IMG/VR virus record: IMGVR_UViG_3300042476_000711
Location: 1 to 22,735 of that record
Strand: one strand, 5' to 3'
Source of the DNA: a virus
DNA length: 22,735 nt
This document shows, piece by piece, positions 1 to 22,010 of this stretch (positions are counted from its first letter, which is position 1; every line of letters begins with the position of its first letter). The position numbers and the translations under genes are program-made. A model generated the notes under the pieces. The model was not told where the DNA came from. It searched no databases and saw nothing but the letters and a program-made list of their open reading frames with translations.

Positions 1-1368
1 GGTGTAACCGAAAGAGGACCAGAAGGTAAGGCAATTGCTGTACACAGCATCGCCGAATACGAGACTGTCTATGGTGGCTACACATCGAGTGGTTGGGTTC
101 ACCAAACTCTTGAAGCCTTTTTTGAAGAAGGCGGCGCTCGTGCGTATGTCTCTCGCGTGATCCCAGACGACGCGGCGTCAGCAGAAGCAATTCTTGACAA
201 TGCAACCAATGATGAATGTTTAGTTCTCACAGCATCAGGCGAAGGCACATGGGCCAATACCGCACTAAGCGCAACGGTGACGCAACCAACAGCAGGTGTT
301 TCGTTTAAGATTGCAATTTCACTTAGCGGTGAAACTGTATACACGACAACAACACACACATCCGTAGCAAATGCAGTTGATGAAATCAACAACAGCGCAA
401 CAGCCGGTCTTTATGTGACTGCAGCAATTGGCGAAGAAGAGGGAATCCCAAAGATTCAGACCGTCGCTTTTTCTGCTGGAGCAAATGGTGGAGCGCTAGA
501 CGATGGTGACCTTGCAGAATCTTTAGAGTTCTTCATTGATTCTTACGGACCAGGCGCAATTTCTGCACCAGGTTTTTACACATCAGACAATTACGACTCG
601 TTGATTGCACACGCAAAAAATTATGGGCGTATTGCGATCCTTGGATTTGACAGAGACGAAACACCTTCTGGTGCCGCTAGTGCGGGTTCCGCTTATGCCG
701 ACGCCGTTGGCGCCGAATACGCAGCGTTCTACTATCCATGGGTAAAAGTTCCAAATGGTTCGTTGACATCAATTATTCCGAATGAGGGATATGTCGCCGG
801 CAAGAGAGCGAAGATTCAAAATGCCGTTGGTCCGTGGGCAGCATACGCTGGCGCAGCGACGGAAGCATCTTTTGTGACAAGTCCATTTGTTGTTCTTTCT
901 TCAACGGAAGAGTCACAGCTTGTTGCTGATGCCGTAAACCCAATTAAACTAGTTAGCGGAACGGTCAGAATTTATGGGGCTCGCTCCATTTCTTCAGATA
1001 CAGCAAACTACCGATTCATCAATGGACGTGAAGTTCTTAACTACATCGTCTACGAAGCAAAACAATCGCTTGAAGCTCTCGTGTTTCAACCAATTGATGG
1101 ACGTCGTGCCCTGTTCGCAAGAATTGGTTCGTCATTGACTGCCATCATGGATAGAATCCGTCAAGCTGGCGGTCTATATGAAGCTATTGATGCAAGTGGA
1201 AAGATCGTTGACCCAGGATATTCAGTTCAGGTCAACGACTCGATCAACCCAGTTAGCCAACTCGCTAGCGGAACGATCAAGGCAAAAGTCGGCGCAAGAG
1301 TATCGTCAATTGGCGAGACGATTGAAGTTGAAATCGTTAAATCCAACCTGACGGCGTCGCTCGTCTAA
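1..1368 (+). CDS. Contractile tail sheath protein, 5' end missing
   Basis: The reading frame is open from the first base, so the gene begins upstream; 455 residues are visible. The GTG at 157 is internal, because the codons before it encode a typical sheath N-terminal segment (GVTERGPEG, then a stretch ending in EEGGARAYVSRV). The C-terminal part, with a GGLYEAIDASGKIVDPGY stretch and a beta-rich end (VGARVSSIGETIEVEIV), matches the conserved C-terminal domain of myovirus sheath proteins (T4 gp18, P2 FI, XkdK type) that forms the inter-subunit mesh. Role from the family: polymerises around the tail tube and contracts to drive it through the envelope. It is followed after 20 bases by the tail tube gene, the usual pairing. 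Assignment is firm; the true start and full length are unknown. Confidence 0.93.
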   Translation, partial: GVTERGPEGKAIAVHSIAEYETVYGGYTSSGWVHQTLEAFFEEGGARAYVSRVIPDDAASAEAILDNATNDECLVLTASGEGTWANTALSATVTQPTAGVSFKIAISLSGETVYTTTTHTSVANAVDEINNSATAGLYVTAAIGEEEGIPKIQTVAFSAGANGGALDDGDLAESLEFFIDSYGPGAISAPGFYTSDNYDSLIAHAKNYGRIAILGFDRDETPSGAASAGSAYADAVGAEYAAFYYPWVKVPNGSLTSIIPNEGYVAGKRAKIQNAVGPWAAYAGAATEASFVTSPFVVLSSTEESQLVADAVNPIKLVSGTVRIYGARSISSDTANYRFINGREVLNYIVYEAKQSLEALVFQPIDGRRALFARIGSSLTAIMDRIRQAGGLYEAIDASGKIVDPGYSVQVNDSINPVSQLASGTIKAKVGARVSSIGETIEVEIVKSNLTASLV

Positions 1369-2581: not shown

Positions 2582-2612
2582 CCCAAAAAACTTACAGGCA
2601 TAGAGGTTGTTG

Positions 2613-5600
2613 GTGGCTGACGAACGCGTATCCATAGTAATTGACATTGATGTCAAGGATGTAGCGGCGATCGCCGCTGTCAAGGCTGCCTTAGCTGATC
2701 TTGATAGGAGTTCTAATAAAGCATCTCGCTCAATGCAGATACTTCAAGGCCAAACAACAGATACTGACAAAGGGTTGCTTGGTGCTGCGAGATCAAGCCA
2801 AAAATTTAGCGATAAATTGAACCAAATGTCTGCATCTGCAAAGTTGATGCAGAAGATGGCACGACCACTCCTCTTCACAATCATTGCTATGGGTCTTGAA
2901 TTTGCGATTACGGCAGCCTCGTTGGCATCCATCAACCTCCTTTTTGCAGTAGGAAGATTTGCTATAAAGGCGTACAATTTTGCAATGCAGGGCTTAGCTG
3001 GGGCTGTTGCTGCGGTTGGTGTTGCTGCACTTGGAGCGGCGGCAGCCTTTAGAGAGTTCACAGCAGCTCAATACGCTTTCAGGTTCAAAGGATCCGACGG
3101 CATAGGTGCCGGTATGGCTGATGCTACGGCAGCCCTTAACTCTTTGTATAAAGATTCGACGCTGGCAACTGTCGGCATCCAAGGACTCAATCAAGCCTTT
3201 AGTGCGGTTGCGAAAAATAGTGCGTTCACTGGAAGATCGCAAGCGTCACTTAAGCAGCTTTACGATTTTGCGGTTGCATCTGGAGACTCTGCAAAAGGTC
3301 TTGCTGCTGCCGGAACGTTTATAGGTTTATTGCAAAAGGAAGCAAAATTCACTACCGAAGCACTTAACGCAGCAAAACAAATTAGCCCTGAGTTTGATAA
3401 AGCTTTCAAAAAAATGAAAGGCCAAGGAAAAATAAACACCGTGGCAGATTTCTACAAAATGCTTGATTCAGGAGAACTTTCAAAAGCTGGAGGGGTCGAG
3501 GGTGCTGCTGGGATTGTTTCGCAAACGCTTTTTGCTCAGTTCAAAGGTTTCATGACAAGACTTTACGGAGAAATAGCCGGTATCGGTCAGGATCTTCTTG
3601 ATCCTTTCAAAAAAACTTTGTTTGGAATATTTCAAATACTAAGAACCTCGATCCGTCGTGTGTCTGGTGACTTGATCAAATTTGGTCAAGGTGGGTTTTT
3701 AACCACCATCCTTAATGTGACACAAAAACTTTCAGATTTTTCCGTAATGCTTTTAAGAAAATTTCTTCCCGCAACAGAAGGATACTTTTCAAAAATAGGA
3801 AAATTCTTCAACAGTGTTGAAAGAGGTTTTAGGAAGTTTGTTGATGTACTAAGACCACTTCAAGAAGGCTCTAGGATTATAAATAAAACATTTGGGCCAG
3901 CAATTGTGGAGATTTTTAAAGGTTTTGGAAGAAACATTCAAAGGCTTGGTCAGCTTGCAAAAGAAAACAAAGATAAGTTTTTAGAATTTGGTCAATCACT
4001 CAAGCGTCTTGTTGCTTCATTTTTTTCTCTTGGTGCTGGATTCAAGGAAGCTTTCACTGAAGCTCTTCCCGTTATAAATCGAGTAGTGAGTGCTATTGCA
4101 TCCATTGTTGAGCAGGTTGCAAACTTGTTTAAATTGATCGGAAGAGCTGGACCGTTGGGTTCGTTTATGGCTATTTTCGGAACGCTTGCTCTCGGTATGA
4201 AGGGTAGGCGTGGTCGTCGAGGCGGGGGAATGGGTGGCATCCCTGGGGTTGGCATACCTGGTATTCCCGGGGCCATGGGTGGTGGGGGTGGATCTGCTTT
4301 AAATCCTCTGAACATTCTTTCTGGAGCAATGGGTTTGGGCAAAGGCCGTAATTCCGCCGCGAATTCCGCTGCTTACACAGGTGGAAAATCTAATTCAATG
4401 TCTAACGCGGTAATAAGCGCAATGGGGTCAACTGTTATCAATGCTGGAAATGTTGTCGTCAATGGTGCTGTTGGCGGCGGTCGTGGCCCAAGGGGTGGCG
4501 GTCGTGGCGGTCGTGGCGGTCAACGTGGAGCCATGCCTTATTCAAGTGGCTACACACGACCATACGGAGGTTTGGAGTCATCTGGACCAAACCCATACAT
4601 GGTGCAAGGTAGAGGTGGTAGTGGTAGGAGATTTGGATCTGGTAGTAGAAGTACGGATAGAACCAGCTACGAAAATTGGTGGCAGGGCGCAATAGCCAAA
4701 CGACAGACAGACACGATTATGACTGATGGAACCAGAGCGGTTTATCCTCAGTCATCTTTAAATAATTTGGACTATAAAGTTCGTCAATCAAATAGTGCTA
4801 AAGGTGGAAGATTCCTTCCTGGTGGTGAAGTGTATGAATCTTTAAGAGCCGACCGAGCCGCTGCGCAGTTTGGTCGTCGAAATATGAATCAGACGCGACG
4901 AAATTTTCTCGCACGGAAAATTGGCTCAACTAGGGCGATGACTGGTTTGATGGGAGCAATGGCTCCAGTCGGCAGTTATCTTGGCGCAAGAGGATTCAAT
5001 AAGAGCCTCGCGGCTCAAAGTTTTGGGCAGTATGGAAGAGCTGGAATTCAGGGCGGTAAAAATCTTCTCGCTAAAGGTGGCGGGAGCTTTGACAGATTCT
5101 TAACTTCAGCAAGAGGTGGGGACAATTTTAAAGCTGCGTATAAAGAAAACATGCGACAGCAAGGTATACAGCTAGCAAAACAGCGAGCTGCCGGTGGACC
5201 TGCTGGGAAACTTTCAAAAGGTAAAGCAATGAGAGCGGGTCTTAAGGGAAACTTTTCCGGAATGGGAATGGTCGCAGGAATAGCAGGATCTGCTCTCGCT
5301 CCATATATTGGCTCCGAAGAGGCGCAAGGATCGCTTCAGGCTGGATCTGCGCTCATGGGTATTTCTCCGCTACTTGGATTAGGTGTAGCAGGACTCGGAA
5401 CAGCCAAGAGTGCAGAAACATTTACGGGCGGAATTCTTTCTGGAGCGGGTGGTGGAGCGGCTACAGGCGCAATGATCGGAAGTTTTATCCCTGGAGTGGG
5501 TACAGCAGCTGGCGCCGTAATTGGTGGCATTGCTGGTGCAATCGGCGGGTACTTCTCAGCAGATTCAAACAAAAAGAAACTAGCCAAACAGGCTGCTGGT

Positions 5601-7334
5601 CAGGTTTCAGATTCCACCAAATTCTCAATGGCCGAGGCCATGCTTTTGGGTAATAATGAAAGTGTTGCAGAAATAGCCGGCAAAAATCTTGCAAAATTTA
5701 AAAAAATGTCAAAAGATCCGGCTGAGCGATCAAAGCAAATTGATCAAATGGTAAAAGATGGATTAATAACTTCTGGGCAACGCGACCGAGCTCTAACCGG
5801 TGGAACTTCCGCAACCGACAAGTCGAAAACATTTGTTGATGAATTAATAAAGCAAACAGAGTCCCAAATAAGAGTTGGTGGCCTGATGACGGAAAGCTAC
5901 ACGAAAAATATGCGTGGCTTGAAAATGGCAACAGGAATGAGTGAGGAAGAGCTCAGAAAACTTGCCAACACAATGAATGTAAACCTATACGACCCAACAC
6001 TCAAGCTCACTGACGCTATTGGCAAACTTGGTAAAGGAATGGTCAAGACGGCGGAAGAAATAAACGACGCTGTTACCGACAATGTTTTGAAATCCCTTGA
6101 GGGTCTTGAAAATTGGGTGGCTGGTCAAAAATTGGCTGAAACTGTTGATGCTTCTCAGCGTGCTTTCAACTCCGGAGCTCCATCAATGGATCAATTCGTT
6201 AGCACTGTTAGCGAATTAGCGGCATACACAATGAAAGTTAACGAAAAGGCTCCACTTTTGGGGGTCCAGTCCTTAATGAAAATGCTCGTCCCTGGAGACC
6301 CTGCTTATGTTTTCGGCCCAAATGGCGCCCTAGGCGCAGGTTTTGGCCAGCTGTCCCCTGAAATGCAAGCGAAATACACCGAAGCATTGAATAAAAACTT
6401 CATTGATCCGATGATCGCAAGTAACGCTATTACTGCAACTACCCAGATTGGCGCAAAACTTGCAGATGCAGGTCTTGGTTTTGCCACTGACACAGATGGG
6501 ACAAAACTTGAACAAGCGATCCAGAAAAAGCTAAGGTATGGAACAGATGCAGAAATAGGTCAACTTAATCAGTTCATAAAGTATGGGAATCTTGGTGGTA
6601 AGAAACCAGAAGATGCAGCGGCACAGATTATGAAGTTAATTGACCCAACTGGCAAAGTATACTCTGGACTGTCGTTGACCGACACATCAAGCGCATTAGT
6701 GAGTGACACTTCAAATCTGTTAGAAATTGACCAAACAACACTTACAGAAATGACTCAGGCAGTAGCAAGTGGCTTGAATGCAAGCCCCAACTGGTACGAA
6801 AAAGTTCCAGGGTGGTGGACGAAAGGTCTTGTTGCAAAAACCAACAGCGCCGCCACAGTTACGCTCTTGCCCTCTGGTGACACATCAACTCCGCGTGGGG
6901 TGGGTGACACCTCTGTCAGTAAGAGATTAAGAAGCACACTCAGTTCTCACAAATATTTTAATGGAAAACTGACTGGTAAAAGAACTATAACGAGTGCTTT
7001 TAGAACTAATAATTTGGGATCACCAAGCTCCGATCACGCAACAGGCAGGGCGTATGACCTAACCGGGCAGAACCTTGGTCAATACTCAAAGATGATCAAT
7101 TCCTCTGGTGGGTTTGCAGAATTCCACGGAGCAAACGCCAATCGCCATCTTCATGTTGTGCCGCCAAGTGGCGATACGTCATCACCTCGTTCTAGGGGAT
7201 CAGGGTCGTCAGCAGCCGCACCAAACATCACTGTTAATGTTCATGCTTCACCTGGGATGAATGTTGACGCTCTTGTAGCCAAGACGATTCGTGCCCAGGA
7301 AGAAGCTATGAGAAATTACTACGAGAGAGCATAA
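2613..7334 (+). CDS. Tape measure protein with C-terminal M15-like peptidase domain
   Basis: About 1573 residues from GTG 2613, the largest gene here. TTG at 2607 or 2610 are alternatives; GTG is preferred because AGAGG at 2602-2606 sits six bases upstream. Tape measure proteins set tail length and help form the DNA channel. Supporting features: location after the chaperone, great length, helical N-terminal part, hydrophobic segments at residues about 82-147 and a glycine-zipper segment at about 939-985. A Gly/Pro/Arg-rich low-complexity zone spans about 528-640. Residues about 1430-1516 resemble zinc DD-peptidases (M15/VanY type): SSDHATGRAYDL gives candidate ligands H1475 and D1482, and RHLHVVP gives H1512/H1514. 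Family knowledge suggests local peptidoglycan cleavage during infection. Activity is inferred; the tape measure call is firm. Confidence 0.92.
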   Translation: MADERVSIVIDIDVKDVAAIAAVKAALADLDRSSNKASRSMQILQGQTTDTDKGLLGAARSSQKFSDKLNQMSASAKLMQKMARPLLFTIIAMGLEFAITAASLASINLLFAVGRFAIKAYNFAMQGLAGAVAAVGVAALGAAAAFREFTAAQYAFRFKGSDGIGAGMADATAALNSLYKDSTLATVGIQGLNQAFSAVAKNSAFTGRSQASLKQLYDFAVASGDSAKGLAAAGTFIGLLQKEAKFTTEALNAAKQISPEFDKAFKKMKGQGKINTVADFYKMLDSGELSKAGGVEGAAGIVSQTLFAQFKGFMTRLYGEIAGIGQDLLDPFKKTLFGIFQILRTSIRRVSGDLIKFGQGGFLTTILNVTQKLSDFSVMLLRKFLPATEGYFSKIGKFFNSVERGFRKFVDVLRPLQEGSRIINKTFGPAIVEIFKGFGRNIQRLGQLAKENKDKFLEFGQSLKRLVASFFSLGAGFKEAFTEALPVINRVVSAIASIVEQVANLFKLIGRAGPLGSFMAIFGTLALGMKGRRGRRGGGMGGIPGVGIPGIPGAMGGGGGSALNPLNILSGAMGLGKGRNSAANSAAYTGGKSNSMSNAVISAMGSTVINAGNVVVNGAVGGGRGPRGGGRGGRGGQRGAMPYSSGYTRPYGGLESSGPNPYMVQGRGGSGRRFGSGSRSTDRTSYENWWQGAIAKRQTDTIMTDGTRAVYPQSSLNNLDYKVRQSNSAKGGRFLPGGEVYESLRADRAAAQFGRRNMNQTRRNFLARKIGSTRAMTGLMGAMAPVGSYLGARGFNKSLAAQSFGQYGRAGIQGGKNLLAKGGGSFDRFLTSARGGDNFKAAYKENMRQQGIQLAKQRAAGGPAGKLSKGKAMRAGLKGNFSGMGMVAGIAGSALAPYIGSEEAQGSLQAGSALMGISPLLGLGVAGLGTAKSAETFTGGILSGAGGGAATGAMIGSFIPGVGTAAGAVIGGIAGAIGGYFSADSNKKKLAKQAAGQVSDSTKFSMAEAMLLGNNESVAEIAGKNLAKFKKMSKDPAERSKQIDQMVKDGLITSGQRDRALTGGTSATDKSKTFVDELIKQTESQIRVGGLMTESYTKNMRGLKMATGMSEEELRKLANTMNVNLYDPTLKLTDAIGKLGKGMVKTAEEINDAVTDNVLKSLEGLENWVAGQKLAETVDASQRAFNSGAPSMDQFVSTVSELAAYTMKVNEKAPLLGVQSLMKMLVPGDPAYVFGPNGALGAGFGQLSPEMQAKYTEALNKNFIDPMIASNAITATTQIGAKLADAGLGFATDTDGTKLEQAIQKKLRYGTDAEIGQLNQFIKYGNLGGKKPEDAAAQIMKLIDPTGKVYSGLSLTDTSSALVSDTSNLLEIDQTTLTEMTQAVASGLNASPNWYEKVPGWWTKGLVAKTNSAATVTLLPSGDTSTPRGVGDTSVSKRLRSTLSSHKYFNGKLTGKRTITSAFRTNNLGSPSSDHATGRAYDLTGQNLGQYSKMINSSGGFAEFHGANANRHLHVVPPSGDTSSPRSRGSGSSAAAPNITVNVHASPGMNVDALVAKTIRAQEEAMRNYYERA
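4194..4530 (+). repeat. Gly-rich collagen-like and RGG-like low-complexity zone in tape measure
   Basis: Two short repetitive patches interrupt the tape measure coding sequence. At about 4194-4300 the protein has RRGRRGGGMGG followed by Gly-Ile-Pro/Gly-Val triplets resembling collagen. At 4471-4526 the DNA repeats a 9-base unit (GGCGGTCGT and variants), giving GGGRGPRGGGRGGRGG. Both are in frame with the gene. They look like flexible or disordered linkers separating the helical N-terminal half from the C-terminal half. Confidence 0.7.
6870..7190 (+). repeat. Repeated linker flanking the peptidase-like domain
   Basis: The peptide PSGDTS(T/S)PR occurs twice in the tape measure, encoded at 6870-6896 and 7164-7190, one copy on each side of the M15-like domain. 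The DNA copies differ at synonymous positions, so they are not a very recent duplication. The layout is that of a domain held between matched flexible linkers. Confidence 0.75.
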
Positions 7335-20000: not shown

Positions 20001-22010
20001 ATGGCAACAGTAAACCTCGGCAAAGTCCGTTTCAACTGGGTTGGTAACTTCGCTTCAATCGCGGCGTTCAAAGCTCTTGATGTCGGCTACAACGGAAACA
20101 TCGTCTATGTATGCAAAGCCGATAAGACCTATGAATCAGCAGGTGCCTTTGATGCCGACGCCGCATCATTTGATGTTGTCGGAACATCGGCAAACGCCGC
20201 CGCTTCAAACAATCAAGTTCTCGTTCGTGGAGCATCTGGTGTAACAGGTGTTACATACGGTGAACCTGGCCTCGTACTTACTAGTACAGGCAAGAGCACA
20301 TTGCCAACGTGGAAGCCACGTTCAGGTCGTCCGAACACAACTCCTTATGTCGGAACATCTGCCGTAACAGACGGAACAACTGTTTGGTACCCGGGCGAAC
20401 AATTCAACCGTTATTTGTCGCATGTTGCTTTTGATATCCAGGCCGAAGGCGCAGCGGGAAGTGGTAATCGTAATTTCTATTACATCACTCCAGATCGCAA
20501 AGCTGTCAAAGTTTCTGGCTTTAACTACGGCGGATCAATGGGCAATAACCATTACGACGATCAGATGTCAACGATCACATATCCAGGTACTCGTTACTCA
20601 GTAGTTTTCAACTACTGCCAGTTTGACACTGCGCTTGACTCAGATGAATTCTTTTGCTACGTCTCAGCATGGGCATATGGTGCAGTTATCGTAACGACAA
20701 AAGGAAACCTCTACTGGGCTGGCCTTAATGCATCAGGTGAATGGGGTGAAGGCACCACCACAAGAAGCTCAATCTTTAAGAAATCAGCCTACTTCGGTCC
20801 GTCAACTGGCCGTCGTGCAACTGGTGTTTACTTCCGCCATTCAAACAACATGTACCAAAACAACCCATCCGCCACTGTCATTGTAAGAACACTTGATGGT
20901 CGTTTGTTTGGTTCCGGTTACAACGTTGATGGAATTCTCGGCAAAAACGACACTGTAAACGCCACGACCTGGGTGAACATTGGTCAGACTCAGTGGGGTA
21001 CTACGGCACAAGTTGTTGGTCTCCAATGGAGACAAAAACCAGAGGGTATTGACTCGATTGCAATTGCTTGGTTGGACAACGGTCAGGTTTGGGGTTGGGG
21101 TAATCCATTCTCCAACGGTCTTGGCCGCAACAACGCTACACAGTTGAACATTCCGACTCGTCTCACTGAGCTTGAGACGATCATGCAGAACACTGTTGCT
21201 GGGGACACGATTCGCCAAATTTTCATGCCATGGGACGGAAGCGTAACCCAGTACAACTCGATGACAGCTGTTTTAACAAACGCTGGAAGACTTTATGTTT
21301 GTGGTCGAGGTCAAAGAGGTGACCTTGGTATCGGTGGCGTAACCACTGCACAGACACAAGTTACCTGGATTGAAGTTGTTTGCCCAGATACAAGAACATG
21401 GGGTCAGATTCACTTTACCAACGGTGCGGCTTGGTCTTCCGTTTACGGAATCACAACAAGCGGCCACTTGTATGCGTGGGGTGACAACAGGAACCAACAA
21501 CTCGGATTTATCAACGACACAGCACATCGTGCACAGCCAGTTGAAGTTACTGGTCTTCCGACTGGCTTCCAAGGCAACATGCGTTATGTATGGTCGTTTG
21601 CGAATTCGCACGGAGCAGCCGATGATCAGACGTCAGGTAACTTCTATACGTTCTTCAAGGCTTATGACTCAGTAACTGGTCAGGATCGCTATGCGTTCGC
21701 CGGCTACTGGGGTGGCGGAGTTGGTTGCACTTTTGGTTCAGATCGCCGTGTAGACCAACAATTTGCCATTAACCTTCCTTGTCGCGAAATGACATTCGGT
21801 CTTCCAAACTTTGGTCAGGGCCTAGTGGACATTGTGTTTAGACACGGTGAGTCTGGTTCGACTAACGCATGGTTTACGGTTCAGTGGATCTTCAAGGATG
21901 GACGCAGTTTCATCTCTGGATACCAGAACAACACATCTACATACGGTGTTTCGACTGGTTACACGCTTCCTGCGTACAACCACTATCCGATGGAAATGCG
22001 TTACCAGTAA
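20001..22010 (+). CDS. RCC1-like beta-propeller tail fibre / adhesin
   Basis: A 669-residue protein with AGGAGAT at 19984-19990 before its ATG. The first 60 residues (VNLGKVRFNWVGNFASIAAF then IVYVCKAD) resemble the N-terminal module of the previous gene, suggesting a shared docking domain. From about residue 155 to the end there are eight RCC1-type repeats with the signature (T/D)xxGxLYxxGxNxxGxLG, for example TTKGNLYWAGLNASGEWGEG, TSGHLYAWGDNRNQQLGF and LDNGQVWGWGNPFSNGLGR. RCC1 proteins form seven-bladed propellers used for binding. Here the propeller probably forms the receptor-binding head of a fibre. No enzymatic residues are evident. The fold call is strong; the receptor is unknown. 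Confidence 0.82.
   Translation: MATVNLGKVRFNWVGNFASIAAFKALDVGYNGNIVYVCKADKTYESAGAFDADAASFDVVGTSANAAASNNQVLVRGASGVTGVTYGEPGLVLTSTGKSTLPTWKPRSGRPNTTPYVGTSAVTDGTTVWYPGEQFNRYLSHVAFDIQAEGAAGSGNRNFYYITPDRKAVKVSGFNYGGSMGNNHYDDQMSTITYPGTRYSVVFNYCQFDTALDSDEFFCYVSAWAYGAVIVTTKGNLYWAGLNASGEWGEGTTTRSSIFKKSAYFGPSTGRRATGVYFRHSNNMYQNNPSATVIVRTLDGRLFGSGYNVDGILGKNDTVNATTWVNIGQTQWGTTAQVVGLQWRQKPEGIDSIAIAWLDNGQVWGWGNPFSNGLGRNNATQLNIPTRLTELETIMQNTVAGDTIRQIFMPWDGSVTQYNSMTAVLTNAGRLYVCGRGQRGDLGIGGVTTAQTQVTWIEVVCPDTRTWGQIHFTNGAAWSSVYGITTSGHLYAWGDNRNQQLGFINDTAHRAQPVEVTGLPTGFQGNMRYVWSFANSHGAADDQTSGNFYTFFKAYDSVTGQDRYAFAGYWGGGVGCTFGSDRRVDQQFAINLPCREMTFGLPNFGQGLVDIVFRHGESGSTNAWFTVQWIFKDGRSFISGYQNNTSTYGVSTGYTLPAYNHYPMEMRYQ

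Follow-up and report, generated by a model that had tools for sequence, protein, structure and literature searches.

The question raised by this locus is what a protein built of RCC1 repeats, a class whose phage members are currently filed under DNA metabolism and read in papers as DNA-condensing, does among the tail genes of a virus. The window (the complete viral record IMGVR_UViG_3300042476_000711, 22,735 bases) has a gene content that reads as a contractile-tail module (Table 1). Besides the sheath gene it contains a very long tape-measure-like ORF (2607-7334, 1575 aa), for which no match was found in the annotated phage collection; the C-terminus of this ORF shows a weak Peptidase_M15-like match (E=0.026). 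The genes ahead of the fibre genes are presumed to encode the baseplate. They are followed by a cluster of three fibre genes, opened by a long fibre in which Pfam CBM_5_12 is matched in 4 stretches (E=5.5e-19) and which also matches the tail fiber family phrog_9851 (3.3e-45); the next two genes are here called RCC1-A and RCC1-B.

Table 1. Features of the window, with the glycosyltransferase-like genes of related contigs
Feature	Position	Strand	Remarks
Sheath gene	1-1368		31-34% identity to Arthrobacter, Gordonia and Brevibacterium myophage sheaths
Long tail-fibre protein, 1067 aa	16784..19987	+	N-terminal CBM5/12-like repeats; opens the three-fibre cluster
RCC1-A, 669 aa + stop	20001..22010	+	complete gene; ATG start after a good ribosome-binding site (AGGAGAT)
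RCC1-A dock, residues 1-62	20001..20186	+	CBM5/12-like (hhalign)
RCC1-A linker, residues 63-108	20187..20324	+	VLVRGASGVTG...LVLTSTGK...PTW; common to tail-fibre families
RCC1-like segment 1, residues 150-206	20448..20618	+	low confidence, possible extra blade
RCC1 segment 2, residues 217-268	20649..20804	+	0/200 shuffles; four strands
RCC1 segment 3, residues 276-333	20826..20999	+	0/200 shuffles; four strands
RCC1 segment 4, residues 339-396	21015..21188	+	0/200 shuffles; Pfam match 21078-21188
RCC1 segment 5, residues 405-462	21213..21386	+	0/200 shuffles; Pfam match 21285-21341
RCC1 segment 6, residues 467-522	21399..21566	+	best repeat; Pfam match 21459-21560, E=3.3e-8; 0/200 shuffles
Segment 7, residues 530-590	21588..21770	+	degenerate in RCC1-A; three strands
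Segment 8, residues 609-669	21825..22007	+	last blade; four strands
RCC1-B, N-terminal part, 230 aa	22045..22734	+	cut-off start; contig ends inside the gene
Glycosyltransferase-like gene in relatives	L005:13182-14207; L026:7633-8709; L049:9232-10302		

The profile HMM analysis places RCC1-A in the RCC1/BLIP-II group, with several repeats over the curated cut-off: Pfam RCC1 (PF00415) matched in three stretches with E=1.5e-12 (48.3 bits, cut-off 21.7), PF13540 with 9.8e-9, and the RCC1-like domain PF25390 with 1.6e-20, under that model's own 150-bit cut-off, while the HERC2, RPGR and RCC1 chains were matched at the sequence level. The RCC1 segments span ~20448-22007 (residues 150-669). AlphaFold modeling of the propeller alone (16 sequences) gave a pTM of 0.74, and that of the full-length protein a pTM of 0.65 with a similar strand pattern. 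Foldseek matched both models to solved RCC1-like domains (UVR8, HERC2, RPGR, RCC1; E down to 5.5e-18 and 2.2e-19, probability 1.00), with TM 0.5-0.68 of the target and rmsd 5-8 Å, i.e. with shapes only roughly alike; a TM of ~0.6 to seven-bladed RCC1s is compatible with an eighth blade or with a weak model, and was left out of the blade count. When viral models were searched, the tail fibre of Littlefix and the T7-type tail fibre of PollyC (E=1.1e-17) were among the best matches from named bacteriophages. The head of RCC1-A is thus predicted to be a propeller of the RCC1 class, in agreement with the sequence-only reading of this DNA. The epithet "eukaryote-style" used in that reading is misleading, since the RCC1/BLIP-II group, to which BLIP-II itself belongs, has both eukaryotic and bacterial members (PMC9218822), RCC1 propellers occur in many phages (three PHROGs), and phage tail fibres are among the best viral structure matches.

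The same reading counted eight RCC1-type repeats. We laid out eight repeat-like segments by eye and compared each with 200 shuffles, using an external HMM made from unrelated phage RCC1 repeats as well as a leave-one-out procedure; since the segments were picked by eye, the shuffle counts serve as a guide and not as strict probabilities. With the external HMM segments 1-6 each beat 200/200 shuffles, and segments 2-6 beat all of them again in leave-one-out, which makes them strong in both tests. Segment 1 (12.0 bits) was equaled by 0/200 shuffles with the external HMM and by 39/200 in leave-one-out. For segment 8 the leave-one-out count was 1/200; with the external HMM it was not significant in RCC1-A, and it passed in most relatives. 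Segment 7 did not rise above the shuffles in either test and is supported in some relatives only, most clearly in the RCC1-B of L023 and L026. An earlier leave-one-out run with fewer sequences left segments 1 and 7 undetected. In the AlphaFold model segments 2-6 and 8 have four strands each, and segment 1 has two or three, with low pLDDT. The repeats therefore lie where they had been reported and seven of the eight are statistically detectable, the exception being the degenerate segment 7. Seven blades are well supported, and an eighth, from segment 1, is possible but unproven. The fibres of PollyC and SeaP3 contain seven motifs at a comparable spacing, which suggests that the usual seven blades are represented by segments 2-8, and an extra blade or a closing hairpin by segment 1.

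The docking module that had been proposed ahead of the repeats was confirmed as a dock of the tail-fibre type. The dock of RCC1-A is related to those of RCC1-B and of a podovirus (L012) (hhalign E=2.8e-19, 99.2%), and profile comparison also links it with the N-terminal end of the long fibre (E=6.4e-10); the CBM_5_12 model matched the docks of 4/7 relatives and gave no match in RCC1-A's own dock. The "tail fiber protein" family phrog_9851 matches dock and linker of the L026 homologue (3.9e-18), and pelagiphage genes match residues 1-109 of RCC1-A, one of them (HTVC024P gp43) adjoining a putative tail fibre. In the podovirus L012, several tandem genes that follow a T7-type fibre bear a dock of the RCC1-A type with other heads. 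Such combinations of one dock with differing heads in L012 and HTVC024P represent the modular behaviour expected of fibres, and the N-terminal ~110 residues of RCC1-A constitute a tail-fibre module that is joined to various heads in other phages, i.e. the N-terminal virion attachment module typical of receptor-binding proteins. A point against an adhesin is that the dock and the propeller are joined without an evident shaft or trimerisation domain.

Analysis of the genomic neighborhood revealed that the order of long CBM fibre, RCC1-A and RCC1-B is kept in L005, L006, L023, L026, L049 and L050/L053, including distant relatives in which RCC1-A is only ~36% identical, and that a counterpart of the long fibre occupies the equivalent place in L005, L006, L023, L049 and L050. 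As expected of a receptor-binding protein, RCC1-A follows the long fibre, in a group of fibre genes that lies downstream of the presumed baseplate genes; the conserved three-fibre cluster thus supports the proposal that the propeller takes the place of a receptor-binding head, where it would bind the host. No relatives were recovered when 84,980 genomes were searched with the RCC1-A alignment.

Complete homologues of RCC1-B are present in the closest relatives (L005:10045-12798, 917 aa; L006:10046-12928, 960 aa), where the protein contains a cupredoxin-like insert and a second RCC1 propeller. The insert lies at residues ~196-304 of L005:10045-12798 and in L006 matches Pfam Copper-bind with E=0.0055, under that model's cut-off; similar inserts occur in cyanophage tail and baseplate proteins (31-46% identity). 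In L004, the RCC1-A of which is 100% identical to that of the window, the RCC1-B frame is broken at L004:11080-11110 (349 aa, followed by 540 aa read in a different frame), through either a sequencing error or a real change. In several relatives the RCC1 pair is followed by a glycosyltransferase-like gene that varies in strand and type.

We consider it likely that RCC1-A is a short virion-borne tail adhesin, the propeller of which binds the host surface, and that it is paired with RCC1-B. This interpretation is well supported by the context: the RCC1 fold, a tail-fibre dock recombined with other heads, the conserved fibre order, and RCC1 proteins in the virions of other phages (see below). From these features, and from the independent RCC1-tipped fibres described below, we infer that the protein is present in the virion, located at the tail and engaged in receptor binding, so that the earlier claim of a phage adhesin is probably right. 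The phage would be a contractile-tailed one that infects Actinobacteria, and RCC1-A would sit on its tail, anchored to either the baseplate or the long fibre by the CBM5/12-like dock and the linker (together residues 1 to ~110). The propeller (~150-669) would form the distal head, and its loops may recognise some structure on the host surface, most probably a glycan or a polymer of the cell wall. RCC1-B could supply a second head of similar kind on a similar dock, in which case the phage would carry a matched pair. WhiB genes, found in 7/10 related contigs (in a control set of 14 genomes they were present only in Corynebacterium), together with the Arthrobacter/Gordonia-like sheath, point to Actinobacteria as the probable hosts.

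The strongest competitor, which we regard as unlikely, is that RCC1-A is a structural or decorating propeller of the tail that caps or spaces the fibres and leaves host recognition to RCC1-B or to the long fibre with its CBM5/12 repeats. The long fibre does bear several CBM5/12-like repeats, and the RCC1-A heads are conserved rather than hypervariable: comparison with L005 gave dN 0.068 and dS 0.80, which indicates purifying selection and not rapid divergence, and the head exceeds the dock only slightly in variability when close relatives are compared. A receptor-binding protein diversified by a DGR was likewise considered and set aside, as no reverse transcriptase (RVT_1) was found among 8 related contigs, which may be fragments and of which two measure 151 kb and 118 kb. 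The conserved head and the lack of a detected DGR in these contigs leave no signature of rapid receptor-driven change. However, docks are recombined with differing heads, and in the PollyC and SeaP fibres the RCC1 domain is the C-terminal tip itself, the usual place of receptor binding.

The adhesin interpretation of RCC1-A is further illuminated by its counterparts in other phages. Fibres with RCC1 domains, for which the sequence-only reading had suggested a search, do exist independently: Pseudomonas phages PollyC and SeaP1-4 (Ppr_SeaP1-4) encode proteins with a T7-tail N-terminal domain and a C-terminal RCC1 head, and SeaD1 and others share the N-terminus of these fibres at 75% and have no RCC1 part, an arrangement that appears from the sequences to be a natural exchange of heads. 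Three PHROGs bear the name "regulator of chromosome condensation" and are classed under DNA metabolism, and each includes tail-module proteins: phrog_4219 covers the whole T7-type tail fibre of PollyC, phrog_7220 a phiCDIF1296T protein located in a tail-fibre cluster, and phrog_16766 an SP-15 protein adjoining a pectate-lyase gene; in LIS04, a sister phage of SP-15, a baseplate J gene lies just upstream of the RCC1 gene. Among phages followed up from matches, rather than surveyed at random, RCC1 genes also adjoin tail fibres in S-SRM01, BUCT-ZZ01 and PBES02 and lie near a tail protein in PS6, and in Littlefix an RCC1 head forms part of a tail protein (phrog_20500). The exceptions are the jumbo phages UB and BF, which carry separate RCC1 clusters that are not placed in the tail module.

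Several additional observations concern these phages. The clusters of Escherichia phage UB (L034) and Serratia phage BF (L038) are annotated as DNA condensation; we speculate that they could encode whisker or tail appendage proteins. The RCC1 proteins of UB and PBES02 align to the head part of phrog_4219 (419-800). Beside the tail fibres of Synechococcus phage S-SRM01 (L013) and of BUCT-ZZ01 (L016) there are ~7 and ~14 very regular RCC1 repeats, respectively, which suggests recent repeat amplification of propeller heads. A match in Aphanizomenon phage Yong-DA was set aside, as its neighbours resemble polysaccharide genes and not a tail module.

RCC1 proteins have been detected in virions by mass spectrometry: several RCC1-like "DNA condensation proteins" in phAPEC6 (PMC7247149), W70_237-239, three proteins of phrog_4219, in W70 (PMC11370258), and GAP_001 in GAP32 (PMC5259590). 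As far as the accessible parts of the phAPEC6 and W70 reports go, their authors proposed DNA ordering or encapsidation, without a direct test (PMC7247149, PMC11370258). It is very improbable that RCC1-A is such a DNA-condensing or capsid inner-body protein, despite these proposals and the classification in PHROGs, because DNA binding is not favoured by a propeller of net charge 0 and pI 7.2 that lacks a basic tail. Moreover, the N-terminus, where a canonical RCC1 protein would bear the basic chromatin-binding tail, is a tail-fibre dock, the genes lie within a fibre cluster, and phrog_4219 spans a whole T7-type tail fibre. Equally improbable is that RCC1-A is an enzyme (a polysaccharide-degrading spike) or an inhibitor like BLIP-II: glycosidases and BLIP-II are indeed found among β-propellers, but the structure matches are RCC1/UVR8/HERC/RPGR domains without glycan-cleaving enzymes, and RCC1-A matches no catalytic family.

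Phage "chromosome condensation" proteins are thus probably often fibre heads, and the DNA-packing label usual for the related phage RCC1 proteins is probably wrong. In a broader generalization, which we advance tentatively and hold somewhat short of an even chance, RCC1 propellers might be widespread unrecognised host-binding heads, with the three PHROGs and the jumbo-phage "DNA condensation" proteins being tail adhesins, and the actinophage tandem pair a variant with an eighth blade. A literature search found no paper on an RCC1 phage adhesin, which is no proof, as most subscription papers lay outside it. Propeller-headed phage adhesins as such are already known, and in our judgement the main interest of RCC1-A is that it calls for re-annotating phage RCC1 proteins. 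Such re-annotation would add a propeller class to the searchable receptor-binding domains of phages, yield candidate receptor-binding proteins for uncultured actinophages, and open the function of the RCC1 proteins in jumbo-phage virions to a direct test.

Compared with known systems, RCC1-A shares the RCC1-like propeller fold with eukaryotic RCC1, UVR8, HERC and RPGR, however with 15-20% identity and in a different context; the eukaryotic propellers have the canonical seven blades, and the chromatin tail of canonical RCC1, a Ran exchange factor and chromatin binder, is absent from RCC1-A. The proteins of jumbo phages and Vequintavirinae (phAPEC6, UB, BF, W70, GAP_001 of GAP32) are likewise RCC1-like, several being found in virions, but unlike RCC1-A they are ~380-400 aa long, lack a dock and are often clustered. 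The baseplate receptor-binding protein Gp45 of Staphylococcus phage phi11 contains a β-propeller, as we propose for RCC1-A, but of a five-bladed, non-RCC1 class and in a trimer with a helical stem; the propellers of PRD1 P2 and phiKZ gp131C have been named beside it (PMC4901313). The Littlefix fibre has a similar RCC1 head, but belongs to a schitovirus, is 1365 aa long and has an unrelated N-terminus. The fibres of PollyC and SeaP1-4 (phrog_4219) resemble RCC1-A in having a C-terminal RCC1 head after a tail-fibre attachment domain, but they have 7 RCC1 motifs (PollyC and SeaP3), one late repeat being weak, against eight repeat-like segments, a T7-type dock and a long central part against a short CBM5/12-like dock, and they act as a single fibre of phages with a Gram-negative host, whereas RCC1-A is a member of a tandem pair.
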